Shown one piece after another: positions 5,313 through 17,143 of a DNA stretch of 64,000 bases (the stretch's first letter is position 1; the number at the start of each line of letters is the position of its first letter). A program made the position numbers and the translations under genes. This DNA comes from Pyrinomonadaceae bacterium (GTDB taxonomy: Bacteria > Acidobacteriota > Blastocatellia > Pyrinomonadales > Pyrinomonadaceae): assembly GCA_030841085.1 (NCBI GenBank), contig JAVEDP010000018.1, positions 1-64,000 on the forward strand, given 5' to 3'. The notes below the pieces were generated by a model. That model made no database searches, had not been told where the DNA came from, and saw nothing but the letters and a program-made list of their open reading frames with translations.

Positions 5313-5887
5313 GTGACAAGAACTTGGAACTAGACGAGACGTTTTTCCATGATTTCGAGTGCCGGCTCCTAAAGGAGCTTCCTGGCCTCATGCATCAGAA
5401 CTATTACTATCCTCATCAGATCAAAACCGGGCGAGATGGTCTGCTCGTGCGAGTATCTCCGCATTCTGGTCAGTCGTGGATAGGCACGTTCGCGTTCGGA
5501 GATTTATCTCCGAAAGGAAAGAACGGTCTTTACTCATGGCCCGATGCCGACATGTTGTGCGTTGTATCTCAAGGTCAAGGTTATGTTGTCAACGTTCGCG
5601 AACCAGTAAATTACGAAATGCTATCAGTCCACCCTATTCTTGAGGTAATACCGGCAAGGCAAAAGAACATTGTTGTTTTTGCGAATAATACTGAACTAAT
5701 CGCCTATGGTAATTCAGGACCAGCATGGGTAACCGAACGGCTTTCGTGGGATGGGATCAGAGTTACTAAGGTAAGTCATGACACGATCGAAGGAGAGGTT
5801 TGGGATCCTCGAATCGAGTCCAATGTTGGGTTCAAAGTGGATTTGGCAACTGGTTTGCATGAAGGCGGCGTTTTCCAAGAAATCTAA
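5309..5887 (+). CDS. Candidate cytoplasmic immunity protein (cassette 2)
   Basis: 192 residues, no signal peptide or membrane segment. It overlaps the toxin stop by ATGA, so translation is probably coupled. The protein is rich in aromatic residues and beta-forming stretches, including WIGTFAFGDLSPKGKNGLYSW, and has the look of a single-domain binding protein. I do not recognise the family. Lack of a signal peptide suggests the partner toxin acts in the cytoplasm, which fits a nuclease or NAD-type target better than a wall target; that is inference only. Confidence 0.75.
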   Translation: MSDKNLELDETFFHDFECRLLKELPGLMHQNYYYPHQIKTGRDGLLVRVSPHSGQSWIGTFAFGDLSPKGKNGLYSWPDADMLCVVSQGQGYVVNVREPVNYEMLSVHPILEVIPARQKNIVVFANNTELIAYGNSGPAWVTERLSWDGIRVTKVSHDTIEGEVWDPRIESNVGFKVDLATGLHEGGVFQEI

Positions 5888-5892
5888 GATGA

Positions 5893-6984
5893 CGCAGGCG
5901 ATCTCACACTCAGTGTCAGTCAAGGGCTAACTACGAAATTTCGCCTTACCGTTCTGACCTGCAATACACGGCGGATCTTTACTATGCTTATCTACAGCGC
6001 GGGCCGGACGACGGTGGACTAGCCTTCTGGGCCGGCCAGGCGGCGGGTGGAGTAACGAACAGAACCAACGTCTGCAATGCGTTTGAAGCAAGCGGCGAGT
6101 TTCAAACTCTCGTTGCGAATCTTTACGGCACGGCTGCTTCGGACAACGAACGCACCGAGCACTTCGTCAACAACTTCTATCGCGGCGCTTACGGTGTCGA
6201 TGCCACCTCAACGCAAATCCAACAGCAACGCGACGCGTTGAATGCCGCGGCAGCGCAGAGTCAGGTTGCCGTACAGGCGCAGGCTGAAACTTTTGGCCGC
6301 AGTCTGTTTACTAGCCAGGTCAATGACGGCAGTCTAAGCAACACGCAGTTTGTGACGAACCTGTACGAAGCGTTTCTGCAACGCGGGCCGGACGCCGGCG
6401 GACTGGGTTGGTGGTCGGGCCAGGCAACGGTCGGCACCGGACGTCAGAATGTTTTGGGAGCGTTTGCCGGCTGCCCCGCGTTCAGAGATCTTTCCGGCAC
6501 GCTCTATCGCGAAGCCAACTGGCTGGTCAGCGATCACCTCGGCACGCCCAGAATGATCGCGAACAAGAGTGGCTCGCTCTCGAGCATGAAGCGGCACGAC
6601 TATCTGCCATTCGGTGAAGAGTTGGGTGCTAACATTGGCGGACGCACCACCACGCAAGGCTACGCCGGCGACAGCGTAAGACAGAAATTCACCCGCAAAG
6701 AACGGGACAATGAAACCGGGCTGGATTACTTCCTGGCTCGATACTACTCATCTAATCAGGGACGCTTTACTTCCCCGGATGAGTTCAGCGGTGGACCAGA
6801 CGAGCTGTATACGTTTGCTGAGGATGCTTCGGATAATCCGACTTTCTATGGTGACATGGGGCAGCCGCAATCACTGAACAAATACCAATATGCGTACAAC
6901 AATCCTCTGAGATTACTGTCCACAATGTATAGAAGAAGTTGTGGAGGAAGTTGCCGAATCGCCCGCAGGCCAGCAAGTTATTAA
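5893..6984 (+). CDS. Displaced DUF4214/RHS-core fragment (cassette 3)
   Basis: Open from 5893. Homology to the full gene starts at 5953 (SDLQYTADLYYAY) and includes two or more DUF4214 units and the RHS core. The first reasonable start codon in frame is TTG at 6238, so the 5' part is probably not translated where it lies. At the core end (NPLR, about 6910) the expected codons for YxDPDG are missing and the frame is lost; it runs to a stop at 6984 through unrelated residues. The original frame continues as the toxin at 6941-7447. Confidence 0.75.
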   Translation, partial: RRRSHTQCQSRANYEISPYRSDLQYTADLYYAYLQRGPDDGGLAFWAGQAAGGVTNRTNVCNAFEASGEFQTLVANLYGTAASDNERTEHFVNNFYRGAYGVDATSTQIQQQRDALNAAAAQSQVAVQAQAETFGRSLFTSQVNDGSLSNTQFVTNLYEAFLQRGPDAGGLGWWSGQATVGTGRQNVLGAFAGCPAFRDLSGTLYREANWLVSDHLGTPRMIANKSGSLSSMKRHDYLPFGEELGANIGGRTTTQGYAGDSVRQKFTRKERDNETGLDYFLARYYSSNQGRFTSPDEFSGGPDELYTFAEDASDNPTFYGDMGQPQSLNKYQYAYNNPLRLLSTMYRRSCGGSCRIARRPASY

Positions 6985-7447
6985 TGCCGGTGGGGCCGCC
7001 ATTACTTCTGTCATTATTGCTGCTAGCGGCGCGGTACCGAAACTGGCGGAAGCTGGAGGACACCTTCTGGAAAAAATCGGGGGACAGGAAACCGTCGCCT
7101 GTAACGAGTGCAATCAGTGGACGTACCAGAGCAAATGGAGTAAGGCTGAGGGAGGCGCAAAAGGTGCTCAAGCTACTGACGAAAAAACGAAGGGTTCAGG
7201 CGACGCGGTTAAGAAAGGCCAAGAGGACACCCGCCAGAAGCCTCAGGATCAACCCAACCGGAAGGCGGCAAAAGAAGCATTTAATCGAGAGGCGGGAAGT
7301 AATTCTCGTAAGCCCATTAGAGATAGAAACACAGGAAAACTAAAAGGTGTGGGCGCCGGAAAAGCGTCATATCGCCCTAAGGGTCGAGACAGATATAGTG
7401 TGACGCCAAAGAGCGGAAAGGCAAAAGATACTCTACATTTTCCATGA
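6941..7447 (+). CDS. Toxin tip with basic C-terminal domain (cassette 3)
   Basis: 168 residues from a nominal GTG; the frame was once joined to the RHS core at NPLR. The start (CPQC just upstream, then EEVVEEVAESPAGQQ) resembles the linker often seen after RHS cores. A CNEC pair at about 7101-7112 could bind metal. The last 65 residues are Lys/Arg-rich and end in SGKAKDTLHFP, suggesting a nucleic-acid-acting toxin, although I cannot name a family. The TGA stop overlaps the next ATG (ATGA, 7444-7447). Confidence 0.65.
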   Translation: MEEVAESPAGQQVINAGGAAITSVIIAASGAVPKLAEAGGHLLEKIGGQETVACNECNQWTYQSKWSKAEGGAKGAQATDEKTKGSGDAVKKGQEDTRQKPQDQPNRKAAKEAFNREAGSNSRKPIRDRNTGKLKGVGAGKASYRPKGRDRYSVTPKSGKAKDTLHFP

Positions 7448-9671: not shown

Positions 9672-10259
9672 ATGATGATACAAGACGATCCATCAGAAAT
9701 CGGACAGCAGTTCTTCTATGGCATTGGAAGGAAGAAGAGTTACCGAAAGGCGTTTCCGCACCTGCTCAAAGCTGCGAGACTTAATGATCCGCACTGTCAG
9801 AATCTCGTGGGTTATTCCTATCATCTTGGGCTGGGTGTAGAAAAGAACATGCGCTCGGCCCTGTCTTGGTATGAACAGGCTGCAAGCAACGAAGATAAGG
9901 AGGCCTTAGGGAATCTCGCACTTCTCTATGAGAAGGGAGAAGGTGTGAAGCCCAATCTGCGAAAAGCATTCTCTTTATACAAGAGAGCCGCCGAGCTTGG
10001 CGATGCCTGGGCTCAATGCAACCTGGGAGTCGCGTACCTTGAGGGCTTGGGCACGAAGCAAAACTTCGAAGAAGGAATTAAGTGGCTAAAGAGAGCAGCG
10101 AGCAAAGGAGATGCTAAAGCGCAATACAATCTTGGCATTGCCTACCGGGATGGTCAAGGTGTGCTGCAAAATAGACGGAATGCTCGAATCTGGTTAGGGA
10201 AAGCAGCGAAGCAAGGCCATAAGAAAGCAGCTCAATATTTGAAGTCGCTTACGAAGTGA
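9672..10259 (+). CDS. Sel1-repeat protein, candidate immunity (cassette 4)
   Basis: 195 residues built of about five Sel1-like repeats (pattern AxxxLGxxYxxGxGVxxNxxxAxxWxxKAAxxGxxxA). No signal peptide. Sel1 repeats form a TPR-like solenoid for protein binding, and Sel1 proteins are known as partners of some secreted effectors. It lies about 50 bp behind a broken proline-tailed toxin; a second Sel1 gene sits behind the related toxin of cassette 6. That repeated pairing is the argument for an immunity role. ATG at 9672 chosen; 9675 is an equal alternative. Confidence 0.85.
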   Translation: MMIQDDPSEIGQQFFYGIGRKKSYRKAFPHLLKAARLNDPHCQNLVGYSYHLGLGVEKNMRSALSWYEQAASNEDKEALGNLALLYEKGEGVKPNLRKAFSLYKRAAELGDAWAQCNLGVAYLEGLGTKQNFEEGIKWLKRAASKGDAKAQYNLGIAYRDGQGVLQNRRNARIWLGKAAKQGHKKAAQYLKSLTK

Positions 10260-10413: not shown

Positions 10414-12090
10414 TTGCAATACACGGCGGATCTTTACTATGCGTATTTACAGCGCGGTCCAGACGATGGTGGACTAGGCTTCTGGGCGGGCCAGGCGGCG
10501 GGCGGAGTAACGAACAGGACCAACGTCTGCAATGCGTTTGAAGGGAGCGGAGAGTTCCAGACTCTCGTTGCAAATCTCTACGGCACGGCCGCGTCGGACA
10601 ACGAGCGCACCGAGCACTTTGTGAACAACTTCTATCGCGGCGCTTATGGCCGTGACGCAACCTCAACGGAAATCCAGCAGCAGCGTGATGCGTTGAATGC
10701 AGCGGCGGCGCAGAGCCAGGCTGCAGTGCAGACGCAGGCCGAGACATTTGGCCGCTCGCTTTTCGCTGGCCAGGTTAACGATGGTTCCATTTCCGATACG
10801 CAGTTTGTCACCAACCTATACGAAGCATTTCTGCAACGCGGACCGGACGCAGGCGGACTCGGTTGGTGGTCTGGTCAGGCGACTGTCGGCACCGGACGTC
10901 AGAATGTTTTGGGAGCGTTTGCCGGCTGCCCCGCGTTCCGAGATCTTTCCGGAACTCTCTATCGCGAAGCCAACTGGTTGGTCAGCGATCATCTCGGCAC
11001 GCCGCGGATGATTGCCAACAAGAGCGGTTCGCTCGCGAGCACGAAGCGCCACGACTACTTGCCATTCGGTGAAGAACTACTGGCCTATACTGGCGGCCGC
11101 ACCACCACGCAAGGCTACAACGCCGACAGCGTGCGTCAGAAGTTCACCTCGAAAGAACGCGATAACGAAACTGGCCTCGATTACTTCGGAGCCAGGTATT
11201 ATGGTAGCGCACAGGGCCGTTTCACATCCGTTGACCCTGCACTCACATCTGCCGACGTGGTAACGCCTCAGAGTTGGAACCGTTATGCCTCCAGCTTCAA
11301 TAACCCAGTGCGATATATCGATCCAACCGGGGCATGGAATTGGTCGGCCACCATGGGAAGCAACTCGACCGACGAGCAACTCAGGAAAAATGCCGGCAAG
11401 GATAAGAACGCACTCAAGGCGGCTAACAAAATCATAGATCAGAGAAATCTCTTCCGAAATGGTCTCAACGCAGCAAGGGAGTCAGGGACAAGTTCTGATG
11501 AGCCGGATTCAGTTGCTCGGGCAGTGAATGCGTACGGGTCCGAGGGGGATAGTAATGGCGTAAGCGTAACTTTTGGCACAGTGGCCGACGGTACAGCGGC
11601 TCAAGCGGGGCCTTCTGCGAATGGATCATTAGCCTTCGACACAAACGGCGTCGCCACCGCACAGGTATTGGTAACGATCAGCAGTTCTGTTACGAACTCA
11701 AACGACTTGGCTCAGGCTATTGGTCACGAAGGTTGGCATACGGCAGATCGTCAGAGTTTTGCAGCATACCTAACGCGTCAGATTCAAGCAGCTGGCGGCC
11801 TAGCAAACTTCATCGGTACACCTCTCGAGTCACAAGCCTTCAACTCACCTTATAATCGAACAGTCCAGACAACAGAGCTCAATGCCTATATTGTTTCTGG
11901 GCTGATCGCACAAGGCCGCGATGCGCTAAGCAAAAACTTCCCAAACTCAAGTTTCAATGGACACGAAGTTTGGAATAACAGTTGGAGTAGAGCTGAGCGT
12001 CCAGGATTGCGGGCCGTAGGAGCATTCGAGCACGTAACAACATCACCCACTTACTCTAGTAAATTGAACGACAGACAATTTCAACCCTGA
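10414..12090 (+). CDS. Displaced DUF4214/RHS-core with HExxH zincin toxin tip (cassette 5)
   Basis: Homology to the full gene begins at about 10387 just after a stop at 10375-10377; TTG at 10414 is nominal. Three DUF4214-type units and a complete RHS core lead to YIDPTG, then a tip of about 250 residues. The tip carries HEGWH (11725-11739), a zinc peptidase HExxH signature, and a later TTELNAY whose Glu is a plausible third ligand, as in gluzincins. Ser/Asn/Gln-rich surroundings suit an exported enzyme. The gene reads without frameshifts from the block start to the stop, so this tip looks intact. An exported TonB_C-like protein follows after 14 bp. Confidence 0.82.
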   Translation: MQYTADLYYAYLQRGPDDGGLGFWAGQAAGGVTNRTNVCNAFEGSGEFQTLVANLYGTAASDNERTEHFVNNFYRGAYGRDATSTEIQQQRDALNAAAAQSQAAVQTQAETFGRSLFAGQVNDGSISDTQFVTNLYEAFLQRGPDAGGLGWWSGQATVGTGRQNVLGAFAGCPAFRDLSGTLYREANWLVSDHLGTPRMIANKSGSLASTKRHDYLPFGEELLAYTGGRTTTQGYNADSVRQKFTSKERDNETGLDYFGARYYGSAQGRFTSVDPALTSADVVTPQSWNRYASSFNNPVRYIDPTGAWNWSATMGSNSTDEQLRKNAGKDKNALKAANKIIDQRNLFRNGLNAARESGTSSDEPDSVARAVNAYGSEGDSNGVSVTFGTVADGTAAQAGPSANGSLAFDTNGVATAQVLVTISSSVTNSNDLAQAIGHEGWHTADRQSFAAYLTRQIQAAGGLANFIGTPLESQAFNSPYNRTVQTTELNAYIVSGLIAQGRDALSKNFPNSSFNGHEVWNNSWSRAERPGLRAVGAFEHVTTSPTYSSKLNDRQFQP

Positions 12091-12104
12091 GGTAACTTAG
12101 AAAA

Positions 12105-12545
12105 ATGCAGTATTATTTGAAAGGATCACTCCTGCTTTTGCTTGGGCTCGTTTTTGTCACTCCTGTCGAGGCACAGCGCAGTCAAACTGAAAGCGTTCAA
12201 CCCACGGTTATTCTGGCAGTGGCGCCGAACTACCTTCCGACGGCGCTTCACTCTCATGCGACCGGCGAAGTCACAATCACGGCGAGGATATCGGCAGACG
12301 GTTCCGTTCTTTCAACTGAGGGCGTTTCCGGTAATCCGGTCTTAGTCGCCGGCAGCAGGCAGATCGCCCGGCGCTGGAAGTTCGCAGCGGCCGTCAACAA
12401 GGATGCAATCAGAACGGCTTGCCTAACTTTTGTCTACCGACTCGTACCCAGAGACGCACCGGCGGATGAACTTCTGCCAATTTTCAAGCCGCCTTACCGC
12501 GTCGAGATCGCCCATGTCTTACCAGACGAGACGCCTCTACCCTGA
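12105..12545 (+). CDS. Exported TonB C-terminal-like domain protein, candidate immunity (cassette 5)
   Basis: 146 residues. A signal peptide (GSLLLLLGLVFVTPVEA) is followed by a domain like the TonB C-terminus: GEVTITARISADGSV, then GNPVLVAGSRQIARRWKF. There is no N-terminal TonB membrane anchor of normal form and no proline-rich spacer, so it is not a working energy transducer. Being exported and directly behind a zincin tip, it may bind and block that peptidase in the periplasm. The role is inferred; a stray TonB_C protein is the alternative. Confidence 0.75.
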   Translation: MQYYLKGSLLLLLGLVFVTPVEAQRSQTESVQPTVILAVAPNYLPTALHSHATGEVTITARISADGSVLSTEGVSGNPVLVAGSRQIARRWKFAAAVNKDAIRTACLTFVYRLVPRDAPADELLPIFKPPYRVEIAHVLPDETPLP

Positions 12546-13905: not shown

Positions 13906-14559
13906 ATGGTAGGACTAAAAGCAAATCGCATTGATCGATTAAGGAAGCGCGCGGAGGGCAGGGACCCCCGGGCAATGTATGCACTTGCTTATCACTTAGC
14001 CACTTTGTCCGACGCCGAAGCATACAGAGCAGAATCTGTTGAGTTACTCAAGTCCGCTGCTGCAAAAGGAGATGAGCGTGCGCAATATGCTCTAGGCACT
14101 TGGTACATATATGGCGTCGGCGTCAAAAAGAACTACAAAACCGCTTGCTCCTACCTTCTGAGTTCTGCCAAGCAGGGCTACGCGCCGGCTCAAAGTTACT
14201 TAGCGGTTGCATTGGAGAACGGTAAGGGCGTAAAGGCCAACAAGGAACAGGCGGCTAAGTGGTACCGAAAGGCTGCGGAGCAAGGTGATCGAGATGCACA
14301 GAGAGAACTGGCTTACAATTATTTTCACGGCATCGGGCTCAAACCTAACGTCAAAGCAGCCCTCTTTTGGGCGCGCAAAGCGGCCAAAAAAGGAGACGCT
14401 GAATCACAGTATTCACTTGGTGCGTGTTACGAACGAGGATTGGGCGTGAAGCAAAATCAGCGACTCGCTGTTTTGTGGTATCAAAAAGCTGTTGAGCAAG
14501 GCCACAAAGATGCGCGCGCCGCGCTGAAAGAACTAAATAAGCGAAAACGTCTAAAGTGA
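13906..14559 (+). CDS. Sel1-repeat protein, candidate immunity (cassette 6)
   Basis: 217 residues with about five to six Sel1-like repeats (for example YALGTWYIYGVGVKKN and YSLGACYERGLGVKQN). No signal peptide. It begins 11 bp after the proline-tailed toxin. The same toxin type and the same partner type occur at 8343-10259, though the two Sel1 proteins differ a good deal, as expected for immunity proteins that track different toxin variants. Confidence 0.85.
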   Translation: MVGLKANRIDRLRKRAEGRDPRAMYALAYHLATLSDAEAYRAESVELLKSAAAKGDERAQYALGTWYIYGVGVKKNYKTACSYLLSSAKQGYAPAQSYLAVALENGKGVKANKEQAAKWYRKAAEQGDRDAQRELAYNYFHGIGLKPNVKAALFWARKAAKKGDAESQYSLGACYERGLGVKQNQRLAVLWYQKAVEQGHKDARAALKELNKRKRLK

Positions 14560-14566
14560 TTACCTC

Positions 14567-16063
14567 ATGCAGTGGAGGAGCAGTGTTTGGCTTCGTCCTT
14601 TAAGATCATTCCTTCAGGATCCAACTAGCTATGTTATTACGCCGTCGCTTCGAGTCTCTGCTTTTCTCTTTAGCTGCTGTTCTTTGACAACTTGGGCTCT
14701 CGTTGCAAATCTCTACGGCACGGCCGCATCGGACAACGAGCGTACCGAGCACTTTGTGAACAATTTCTATCGCGGCGCTTATGGCCGCGACGCAACCTCG
14801 ACAGAAATCCAGCAGCAGCGTGATGCGTTGAATGCAGCGGCGGCGCAGAGTCAGGCGGCGGTCCAATCGCAAGCTGACACATTCGGCCGCAGTCTGTTTG
14901 CCGGACAGGTCAACGACAGCTCAATTTCCGACACGCAGTTTGTTACGAACCTTTACGAAGCATTTCTACAGCGCGGACCGGACGCAGGCGGACTCGGCTG
15001 GTGGTCGGGCCAGGCAACGGTCGGCACCGGACGTCAGAATGTTTTGGGCGCGTTTGCCGGCTGTCCCGCGTTCAGAGATCTTTCCGGCACGCTCTATCGC
15101 GAAGCGAATTGGCTGGTCAGCGATCAGCTCGGCACGCCAAGAATGATCGCGAACAAGAGCGGCTCGCTCGCCAGCATGAAGCGCCACGACTATCTTCCCT
15201 TCGGTGAAGAGTTGGGTGCGAACATCGGCGGTCGCACTCCCACGCAAGGCTATGCGGGCGACAGTGTGCGTCAGAAGTTCACCAGCAAAGAGCGAGATAA
15301 CGAAACCGGGCTCGATTACTTCCTTGCGAGATACTACTCATCAACGCAGGGAAGGTTCACCAGTCCAGACGAGTTCACTGGCGGCCCAGAGAATATCTAC
15401 ACCTTAGGCAAGGGAGACTCAGAGAAACAGGCTCTTCCATATGCGGAAATAACGAATCCTCAGTCCCTAAATAAATACCAGTACTGCTTCAATAACCCTC
15501 TACGATATATCGACCTGGATGGCCATGACGGACTCTTGATTACCAATAAAGATACGGGTCAAACCACGCTTGTGATCCCGGTCCACTTCACAGGGACAGG
15601 AGCAACTCCGGAACTGATTGCCGCAATCGTTAAGCGTGACAACGAACTTGACACTGGTGGTTCGGGAGTGAAAATTGAGGTAGTAGCCACCGACAAACCA
15701 ATAAATGGCGTGCTGAATAATTTAGATCTGAGCCCTGGCTTAGATAAAAACTATCCTCCTGCTGGCGAAGGAGTGAATGGGCCAGGAGGAAACCGAGGTC
15801 ATATAAATAGCGCCACGGGAAGTGCGGATGGCGCTGCCGCTCATGATGTCTTGCATCTTGCCGGCATTAAAGATCAGTACAAAGAAGGACGTCGAGATGC
15901 GAATGGCCAGCGAACCAGCACTCCAAAAAAGGGATACGATAATTCAAACATCATGACTTCTCGCGGCGGAACCAAGCTAAAGCCAGAGCAAATCAGGGAG
16001 GCGCAAAATAACAGGTCCACGAAAAAGTGCACAACAGAAAATGGGAAAACCGCATGCAAATAA
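14567..16063 (+). CDS. Displaced DUF4214/RHS-core with metzincin-like toxin tip (cassette 7)
   Basis: 498 residues. The first 45 codons are unrelated to the block, with homology starting at VANLYGTAAS (about 14697). This cassette therefore has an ATG (14567) upstream of the block and could be expressed by itself. After YIDLDGHDG comes a tip with HDVLHLAGIKD (15842-15874): the H-x-x-x-H-x-x-G-x-x-D pattern of metzincins with Asp in place of the usual Glu. SNIMTS (Met codon 15953-15955) fits the Met-turn. An Asp general base would be unusual; activity is uncertain. The stop overlaps the next gene by 10 bp. Confidence 0.8.
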   Translation: MQWRSSVWLRPLRSFLQDPTSYVITPSLRVSAFLFSCCSLTTWALVANLYGTAASDNERTEHFVNNFYRGAYGRDATSTEIQQQRDALNAAAAQSQAAVQSQADTFGRSLFAGQVNDSSISDTQFVTNLYEAFLQRGPDAGGLGWWSGQATVGTGRQNVLGAFAGCPAFRDLSGTLYREANWLVSDQLGTPRMIANKSGSLASMKRHDYLPFGEELGANIGGRTPTQGYAGDSVRQKFTSKERDNETGLDYFLARYYSSTQGRFTSPDEFTGGPENIYTLGKGDSEKQALPYAEITNPQSLNKYQYCFNNPLRYIDLDGHDGLLITNKDTGQTTLVIPVHFTGTGATPELIAAIVKRDNELDTGGSGVKIEVVATDKPINGVLNNLDLSPGLDKNYPPAGEGVNGPGGNRGHINSATGSADGAAAHDVLHLAGIKDQYKEGRRDANGQRTSTPKKGYDNSNIMTSRGGTKLKPEQIREAQNNRSTKKCTTENGKTACK

Positions 16064-16473
16064 ATTTAATAGTGTCAGTAATGATTGGCGTCTCTTTCCT
16101 TGCCATCTTTCAAAAAGAAGCAGCGCCGATTAGCCCAACAAAAATCCCCGTTGAAGTGTGGTGCGGAGGCGATGATATGTTAACTCGAGGAGTATGTTAC
16201 GCCCTTGAGGATGCGTTCGCGTCATCCGCCGATTTCGCCCTGAGTGACGGACACCCACCAGGAATATTGGTGGTGACGATCCCAACCAACGTTGACTGGA
16301 AAGAGAAAGGGAAACGAACTCGAGTATTTTACACGGTGGAGTTCACAACGGCTGACGATAAAATGCTTCGTACTCGTAAAGGAAAATGCTGGAACGATGA
16401 TTTCGCAAGATGCGTGAATCAAATTGTCAAACAGGCAAGGATTGAAGCCCGCAAGTTACATACTGAACATTGA
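16054..16473 (+). CDS. Exported candidate immunity protein for the metzincin-like tip
   Basis: 139 residues. ATG at 16054 lies inside the last codons of the toxin (10 bp overlap). A further in-frame ATG at 16027 would lengthen the product but spoil the signal peptide (INLIVSVMIGVSFLAIF). The mature part has four Cys residues (WCGGDD, GVCYA, GKCW, ARCV) that could form disulphides, in line with export. No known family. Gene order and the duplicate copy at 16703 support an immunity role against an envelope-acting peptidase. Confidence 0.75.
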   Translation: MQINLIVSVMIGVSFLAIFQKEAAPISPTKIPVEVWCGGDDMLTRGVCYALEDAFASSADFALSDGHPPGILVVTIPTNVDWKEKGKRTRVFYTVEFTTADDKMLRTRKGKCWNDDFARCVNQIVKQARIEARKLHTEH

Positions 16474-16555
16474 TTTTTCTCAGGCCTTTGGAAAGAAAGC
16501 GGAGGGGTGGATGCCAAACACCCAAAGCCGAAGGGTTAGAACGAAGCGAGATAAG

Positions 16556-16712
16556 AATGATCAACGAACCAGCACCCCAACAAAACGATAATTCAAACAT
16601 CATGACTTCTCGCGGGGGCACCACGCTGAAACCGGAGCAGCTTAAGGAGGCACAAAAGAATAAATCTACCAAGAAAGGCACAACAGAGAATGGGAAAACG
16701 GTATGCAAATAA
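16556..16712 (+). repeat. Orphan copy of the 3' end of the metzincin-like toxin gene
   Basis: Repeats about 15901-16063, coding for DNSNIMTSRGG through the final GKTVCK and stop. As in the intact cassette, the last 10 bases overlap the following immunity gene. The catalytic HDxxH part is absent, so this is only a tail left by duplication or by loss of a second toxin. Confidence 0.85.
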
Positions 16713-17143
16713 ATTTTCTAATGCCAGTGATGATTGTCGTCTCTTTCCTCGCGATATATCAAAAGGAAGCGGCACCGCTTAAACCAATAAGGACGCCCGT
16801 TGAAGTATGGTGCGGGGGCGACGATATGTTGACTCGAGGAGTGTGTTACGCCACTGAGAACGCGTTTGAGTCGGCCGCTGATTTCGTGCCGAGTTACGGG
16901 AAAAAGGCAGGCACGTTTGTTGTGACGATCCCGACCCACGTTAAATGGAAAGAGAGGGGCGACCGAACGAAAGTATCTTACACTGTGGAATTCACATCGA
17001 TTGACGATAATAGGGTTGGTAGCCATAAAGGATCATGCTGGGACGATGATCCTGTTCCCGATCGGATTTTTCGGAGTCGTCCTTTTTTGCACGCGCAGTC
17101 CATCTCAGGCCTATTCACGACGCAACAAACAGGTGGCCAATAA
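16703..17143 (+). CDS. Second exported immunity-like protein, altered C-terminus
   Basis: 146 residues, closely similar to the product of 16054-16473 over the signal peptide and the first 110 residues (VEVWCGGDDMLTRGVCYA in both). After GSCWDDD the two part company: the fourth Cys and the helical end of the first protein are replaced by unrelated residues, so the 3' end was probably lost by rearrangement. It may still bind or may be decaying. Confidence 0.65.
   Translation: MQINFLMPVMIVVSFLAIYQKEAAPLKPIRTPVEVWCGGDDMLTRGVCYATENAFESAADFVPSYGKKAGTFVVTIPTHVKWKERGDRTKVSYTVEFTSIDDNRVGSHKGSCWDDDPVPDRIFRSRPFLHAQSISGLFTTQQTGGQ

Follow-up and report, generated by a model that had tools for sequence, protein, structure and literature searches.

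An RHS-borne zincin-like tip and an exported TonB_C-domain partner as a putative toxin-immunity module in Acidobacteriota

Within the 64,000-nucleotide stretch of DNA analysed here (the window), a reading frame ending in a zincin-like RHS tip is followed directly by a gene for a predicted exported protein with a TonB C-terminal (TonB_C) domain. Comparison across genomes supports the pairing of this tip with an exported TonB_C partner. On the strength of this comparative genomics, the two genes probably form a polymorphic-toxin module, in which an RHS zinc metallopeptidase tip is followed by its exported TonB_C immunity protein. TonB is known for powering nutrient uptake and transmitting energy to outer-membrane transporters. 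What appears to be new is an RHS toxin-immunity module whose putative immunity protein uses a domain with no known role of that kind.

The RHS cassette and its zincin-like tip

The features of the locus, in window coordinates, are as follows.

10414..12090, + strand: RHS cassette ORF, 558 aa (ORF list), with part of the DUF4214 region, the RHS-associated core and the toxin tip
11095..11331, + strand: RHS-associated core, the end of the shell that precedes the variable tip (TIGR03696, own-genome profile search, 62.5 bits)
11326..12090, + strand (11326-12087 as the tip proper): zincin-like toxin tip, about 254 residues, delimited by homologues; no Pfam family matches
11725..11739, + strand: HEGWH, candidate zinc-binding/catalytic motif; H, E, G and the second H invariant in 15/15 aligned tips
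11875..11877, + strand: Glu of TTELNAY, candidate third zinc ligand, invariant in 15/15 aligned tips
12105..12545, + strand: exported TonB_C-domain protein, putative immunity protein, 146 aa (ORF list; PF03544; paralogue behind a second own-genome tip, on contig C17)
12105..12173, + strand: predicted Sec signal peptide, 23 residues (hydropathy; cleavage site VEA/Q by eye)
12222..12440, + strand: TonB_C domain (PF03544 placed in own-genome search, 27.5 bits)
12441..12542, + strand: C-terminal extension, 34 residues, with a [FL]xxPxx[VI][EK][VI] stretch (an additional beta strand in a low-confidence model)

The window from about 1 to 17 kb is an array of RHS cassettes, with DUF4214/RHS core pieces, differing tips and small genes behind them. 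The frames at 10414-12090 (558 aa) and 12105-12545 (146 aa), which together make up the span given correctly by the original prediction, lie 14 nt apart. The first of them matches DUF4214 (E 5e-25) and, at 59 bits against a cut-off of 32.5, TIGR03696. Several other tips follow similar cores in the same array, and the small gene directly downstream of the tip differs among loci, which is the organization of an RHS module. Judged by its sequence, the frame at 10414-12090 is an N-terminally truncated, displaced, orphan-like cassette and not a full RHS protein; the truncation is read from the 558-aa frame beginning within the DUF4214/RHS segment.

Other parts of the array have features of their own. 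The tip at 97-2655 carries a YkuD-like L,D-transpeptidase motif, GCVRMHN, at 20.3 bits, just below the Pfam cut-off of 23.4. The cassette tip at 6238-7447 seemingly spans two frames (6238-6984 and 6941-7447), which could be caused by a broken copy or a sequencing error. Sel1-repeat-like genes, recognized by eye, follow two tips (9672-10259 and 13906-14559). Another tip, at 14567-17143, has HDVLHLAGIKD and SNIMTS and is metzincin-like with a Met-turn; its end and the next exported gene are apparently duplicated in tandem (16027-16473 and 16703-17143).

The window tip has no match to a Pfam family. An HExxH by itself is not diagnostic, occurring in 3 of the 75 stop-to-stop frames of at least 150 aa in the window, so that the motif evidence lies in its conservation. 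In an alignment of 15 tips, which left out L022, L023, L024 and L025 as fragments or divergent, seven positions are invariant, and five of these are the H, E, G and second H of the motif and the downstream Glu. The HEGWH and downstream Glu of the original prediction thus stand as an HExxH with a conserved candidate third ligand, the pattern of a zincin by sequence. The same five residues are kept in all eight members of a second tip set, two of whose sequences are common to the first. Over the 32 tip loci, HEGxH is present in 28, HEATH in one (L022) and HIGTH in one (L025), and two have no H-x-G-x-H (L024, which is cut short, and L084). The spacing from the H to the Glu ranges from 20 to 50 residues among tips and is 50 residues in the window tip.

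Profile and structure searches gave weaker signals. Pfam matches to the 15 tips involved 17 families, each in one member except eCIS_core (two members, best E 0.034); metallopeptidase names among the weak matches were Peptidase_M26_C (0.0046), DUF6782 (0.049) and SprT-like (0.13), and one tip matched Intimin_C at E 6.1e-6. A PDB sequence search with the tip gave no match up to E 1, and PADLOC gave only three single-member matches (best E 0.014). The AlphaFold model of the tip has a mean pLDDT of 69.6 and is good only for about residues 1-170. By VIA-align, zincins top the list for this model, led by 1g12 (Z 6.4, rmsd 3.5, 92 aligned), 1ge6 (5.8) and 3e11 (5.1), all below Z 8, followed by MMPs, snapalysin and others at Z about 4; a Z of 6.4 may reflect just a common arrangement. 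Since Foldseek with the same model, of low confidence beyond residue 170, found nothing below E 1, the zincin reading draws mainly on the motif.

Tip matches were found in 14 of 396 genomes of the phylum, the window's own included, and in 16 of 162 genomes of the class, where some of the matches are merely looser non-RHS proteins. A scan of a GTDB-based collection gave seven tip loci, in MAGs labelled Acidobacteria, Sulfopaludibacter, Bryobacteraceae or Bryobacterales. This distribution, together with the sequence common to L088 and to G219 of the own family, would place the window in Acidobacteriota.

The tip could also be a degenerate or non-toxic HExxH protein, such as a peptidase that processes or releases the RHS shell under regulation by the partner. 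Most PVC-metallopeptidase domains of polymorphic toxins are releasing peptidases, according to the part of the polymorphic-toxin survey available to us (PMC3482391), and two of the 15 tips have the weak eCIS_core match given above. The extreme C-terminal variable position after the RHS core and the well-kept motif nevertheless make this identity very unlikely.

The exported TonB_C partner

The gene behind the tip had been predicted to encode a signal peptide and a TonB C-terminal-like domain; the domain was recovered by profile, and a probable signal peptide by eye. Hydropathy is maximal (2.29) at residue 7, with nothing above 1.07 beyond residue 35, and the hydrophobic N-terminus ends in VEA/Q, Sec-like by eye. 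We read this N-terminus, by eye, as a cleavable signal peptide; uncleaved anchoring may occur. The TonB_C domain scores 26.2 bits in Pfam, just above the cut-off of 24.6, and 18.3 with NCBIfam TIGR01352, below the cut-off of 27.1. The Pfam scores of partners elsewhere are 40.5 (the C17 paralogue), 40.2 (G051), 43.0 (G257) and 23.1 (G243b, just below cut-off). A profile of seven partners finds solved structures of TonB C-terminal domains (CTDs) in the PDB (6fip) at E 2.9e-9. The model of the partner is poor (pLDDT 58.9); ranked by E-value, it finds TonB CTDs at E 0.5-0.84 and probability 0.20-0.57, behind unrelated proteins, and its C-terminal stretch is modelled as an extra strand, E110-119. 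A scan of viral contigs with the partner protein found no relative, and a phage or virus origin was set aside on this result.

In this protein the TonB_C domain begins at residue 40 of 146 and has no Pro-rich stretch ahead of it, unlike the anchor and Pro-rich spacer of TonB. The window's own genome has three ExbD genes, two of which adjoin canonical TonB on contig C31 and one of which is on C9; none is near the RHS-linked TonB_C genes. With the ExbD genes elsewhere, a TonB system with ExbB/ExbD was rejected for the RHS-linked genes of the own genome, where the search was for ExbD. The original prediction had described the protein as lacking energy-transducer features, in agreement with these results, and had named conservation of the gene away from RHS loci with a partner ExbB/ExbD as evidence against an immunity role. 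The first part of this does occur, as TonB_C genes are found away from RHS loci, but ExbD near the RHS-linked genes was not found in the own genome.

Of the 11 TonB_C domains that the own genome encodes, eight belong to frames 271-593 aa long and the remaining three to short frames. Two of the short frames follow zincin tips (in the window and on C17), and the third is an orphan on C41. The distance from the domain to the C-terminus is 0-10 aa in the eight other own-genome proteins and in four short ones of other genomes; the three short own-genome proteins have about 30 or more residues after the domain, with an FxPPYxxE[IV] stretch. The broader form of this stretch, [FL]xxPxx[VI][EK][VI], is present in eight of nine RHS-linked TonB_C proteins, L094 departing from it, and also in some stand-alone relatives (L124, L125, L126).

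Pairing of tip and partner across genomes

Of the 32 tip loci, 10 have a TonB_C domain behind the tip; eight have it by itself and two have it joined to an OB-like exported domain. The eight are the window, C17 of the own genome, G051, two in G243, G450, G468:C7 and G257, of which the TonB_C proteins of G450 and G468:C7 were assigned by 56% and 46% identity to a G243 protein. The other two are MAG loci: L094 has the OB-like and TonB_C domains in one open frame (Pfam TonB_C 29.9 bits), and L093 has both in a broken frame, with the TonB_C part judged by eye. Apart from these MAG fusions and the own genome, the pairing is found at six loci in five genomes. At nine of the ten loci, the mechanically listed frames of tip and partner either overlap, by no more than about 41 nt, or are separated by 14 nt at most. 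The count of 32 leaves out repeat rows (L008-L010, L030, L031, L064-L069, L072, L080-L082, L085 and L086), L088, which has the same sequence as L017 of G219, and five proteins not of RHS type that match the motif in a looser form, HEG[KQ]H (L076, L077, L078, L079 and L087).

In the 12 tip-bearing genomes, TonB_C adjoins 8 of the 18 RHS-core rows with this tip and none of the 135 others among the matches listed (Fisher 7.1e-9), a comparison in which the 153 core rows were listed down to about E 2.5e-4, some cores are split in two, so that 135 counts rows and not genes, the rows are not independent, and adjacency was read from coordinates by eye. The genomes were picked for the tip and not for TonB_C, and the first tip profile was built from two tips with TonB_C partners. 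Within the own genome, TonB_C adjoins two of three cores with this tip and none of 16 others (p 0.018). The 190 TonB_C rows of the 12 genomes were listed to E 2.4e-7 and the subfamily profile lists all 88 at E 1e-8, thresholds at which weaker TonB_C matches beside other RHS tips could escape listing. Because the ten TonB_C proteins are themselves rows of the subfamily profile, the gap in score that sets them apart from the others is in part built in.

The abundance of TonB_C domains, with 190 rows in 12 genomes, and the stand-alone occurrence of related short ones would fit a general envelope gene that ended up behind tips through chance or hitch-hiking, with no function tied to the tip. The core-row comparison, which led us to reject a chance neighbourhood, speaks against this, as do the overlapping reading frames, the presence of the pairing in three of the phylum's families (f1, f3, f15) and the correlated distances of tips and partners described next. 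We regard such a bystander gene as most unlikely.

Across nine tip-partner pairs, the distances between tips correlate with those between partners (r 0.86, Mantel 1.5e-4). When near copies were thinned, r was 0.88 (6 of 5040 permutations) or 0.87 (9 of 5040), and when near copies and the divergent L094 were left out, r was 0.70 (9 of 720 permutations). Leaving out G257 as well gave a weak correlation (n=5, r 0.66, 6 of 120 permutations, p 0.05). Part of the correlation may come from the species tree. The two own-genome pairs are 36% and 32% identical to each other, about as distant as from G051 of another family. A tree of 27 proteins did not bring the RHS-linked TonB_C proteins together in a single clade (2 changes, a number as small being reached in 35 of 500 shuffles).

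The next gene varies among the 32 tip loci: besides the eight with TonB_C and the two with TonB_C and an OB-like domain, there are five of an OB-like class, ten of an NNS type (the partner in G211 among them), one of a CxC type, and six that fit no class or have no clear next gene (G372, G085, G113, G258, G209 and L090). Membership of the OB-like, NNS and CxC classes was decided by eye on the basis of common motifs, and Pfam gave just weak chance matches for those tested. At 22 of the 32 loci there is thus no TonB_C, and at 16 of these 22 another exported protein occupies the same place (five OB-like, ten NNS, one CxC). This swapping of exported partners is what would be expected of interchangeable immunity genes.

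At L016 (G141, reverse strand 2277-2837) and at L100 (G450, reverse strand 5345-5815), exported proteins whose mature N-terminus is predicted to be CxC (CLC, CSC) lie directly behind metallopeptidase-like RHS tips. In Pfam, L016 has no family and L100 matches one at chance level; by eye, the two proteins resemble TIMP/NTR inhibitors. At L025 (G258, reverse strand 847-2001), an OB-like exported domain and, after it, a degenerate zincin domain with HIGTH instead of HEGxH make up one protein.

Copies of the TonB_C gene also occur away from this tip. Within RHS arrays, they are found at L095 (7168-7632), L130 and L133, the RHS parts of the latter two being judged by eye. The first (G468:C9:7168) lies 2.6 kb past a core with a different tip, three genes away, and was not counted as adjoining; the segment at L095 5361-7632, in which a different HExx-type RHS tip is followed by a stack of three genes and then by the TonB_C gene, is a poly-immunity-like stretch. 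The third short gene of the own genome (C41:126458-126880) is one of a run of small genes between which lie repeats of about 113 nt; the repeats have attC-like cores, found in 12 and 11 copies in 12 kb. This region (C41:120000-130200, L012:1-10200) is an array of small, often exported genes with attC-like repeats, in which the orphan TonB_C gene is one cassette. Since no integron integrase scored above cut-off in the own genome and the repeats as single DNA strands folded no better than shuffles (z -0.76 to 0.89, four strands), it is the repeated core sequences that argue for a cassette-like array. A copy in the same genus (G480, L124) is flanked by palindromic stretches that are similar by eye.

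Elsewhere in the class, short exported TonB_C proteins, some with the C-terminal stretch, are also found away from RHS loci. The more distant relatives are found by themselves at unrelated sites, so the TonB_C subfamily is wider than RHS immunity. Two short exported TonB_C genes, at L129 (G486, 1483-2229) and L134 (G291, reverse strand 1501-2486), lie amid molybdenum-hydroxylase-like genes, which by eye encode subunits of the xanthine or CO dehydrogenase type.

The CTD of TonB is a module that binds other proteins, and position by itself cannot separate an antidote from an accessory. The TonB_C protein could accordingly be an exported accessory linked to the RHS tip, such as a chaperone, a recruiter to the envelope, or an adaptor for target finding or entry, and the 22 tip loci without TonB_C would be in keeping with this. 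The other exported proteins in place at 16 of those 22 are the pattern of interchangeable antidotes, and the toxin-free copies in RHS arrays and in the attC-like array fit antidotes better than helpers. An accessory role is on these grounds unlikely. We favour an antidote over a transducer or helper because the protein lacks a linker and a recognised anchor, ExbD lies elsewhere in the own genome, the exported partners swap, TonB_C is fused at L094, and copies exist without the toxin. Partner swapping, fusion and toxin-free copies together make up the usual picture of immunity genes.

Proposed mechanism and comparison with known systems

The tip would be a zinc metallopeptidase, with HEGxH and a conserved Glu 20-50 residues on, that acts in the cell envelope of a neighbouring cell. 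The immunity protein would be a TonB CTD that lacks TonB's membrane anchor and linker and ends in a short extension; in the periplasm of the producer it would bind the tip and block the active-site cleft. TonB CTDs pair by beta-strand with their partners, and the blocking may perhaps be of this kind. The conservation of the motif, the domain, the recurrent pairing, the swapping of partners and the domain fusion are observed; that the tip is an active protease, and that the partner is exported, binds it and protects, are predictions of this scheme, as is the place where the toxin would act. Because the window copy has no N-terminal RHS shell, its toxin would first need to recombine with a complete RHS gene in order to be delivered, whereas its immunity gene could confer protection by itself.

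With moderate confidence, we propose more broadly that a TonB CTD freed from energy transduction serves as a periplasmic inhibitor of metallopeptidases in RHS immunity. It would be one of several exchangeable exported types (TonB_C, OB-like, NNS and CxC/TIMP-like) that accompany one zincin toxin family in Acidobacteriota, fused in places and also present as a lone attC-like cassette.

If this is true, a domain for transmitting energy also serves as a toxin antidote, and the annotation of some short exported TonB_C genes of acidobacteria would have to be revised. Seemingly unrelated exported partners of one peptidase family would also become available for comparing inhibitor mechanisms. RHS zincin tips would likewise gain candidate immunity proteins; in the portion available to us of the table in the 2012 survey by Zhang et al. 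(PMC3482391), the apparent immunity column for Tox-MPTase1-5 reads "-". The original prediction had held a TonB_C immunity fold to be new, and no precedent was found in the open-access literature searched, which includes the available portions of PMC3482391, PMC11089894, PMC5361080, PMC6899460 and PMC11148199. Within those portions, "TonB" and "TolA" have 0 occurrences in the polymorphic-toxin survey PMC3482391, and "TonB" is absent from PMC11148199.

Among known systems, VgrG2b and PA0261 of the Pseudomonas aeruginosa H2-T6SS are a close parallel in description, as far as the accessible text of PMC6899460 goes. VgrG2b is a zinc-peptidase effector that acts in the periplasm and is neutralised by an exported partner, apparently through complex formation. 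Both systems have an HExxH tip, here a candidate zinc peptidase, and a downstream gene for an exported partner, here a predicted one, and PA0261 is needed in the periplasm. The carrier there is VgrG, whereas here it is a DUF4214-RHS shell, the likeness is one of description, and the same text mentions no TonB_C domain for that pair.

Tox-MPTase1-5 and other RHS-borne metallopeptidase tips are likewise zincin-like tips behind RHS repeats (PMC3482391, available part), but no such family name is among the 17 Pfam families touching the 15 tips. The tandem modules and orphan immunity genes recall the displaced T6SS immunity arrays of Vibrio cholerae, as described in the accessible part of PMC5361080, which states that there is no evidence so far for integrase-aided insertion of effector-immunity genes. 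The arrays here differ in having RHS tips, and one orphan is in an attC-like cassette array.

The putative immunity protein itself resembles the TonB C-terminal domain (PF03544; the CTDs of E. coli and Pseudomonas) through the profile match to 6fip at 2.9e-9. It differs from TonB in being without a Pro-rich linker or recognised anchor, in having no ExbD nearby, and in carrying an extra C-terminal extension.
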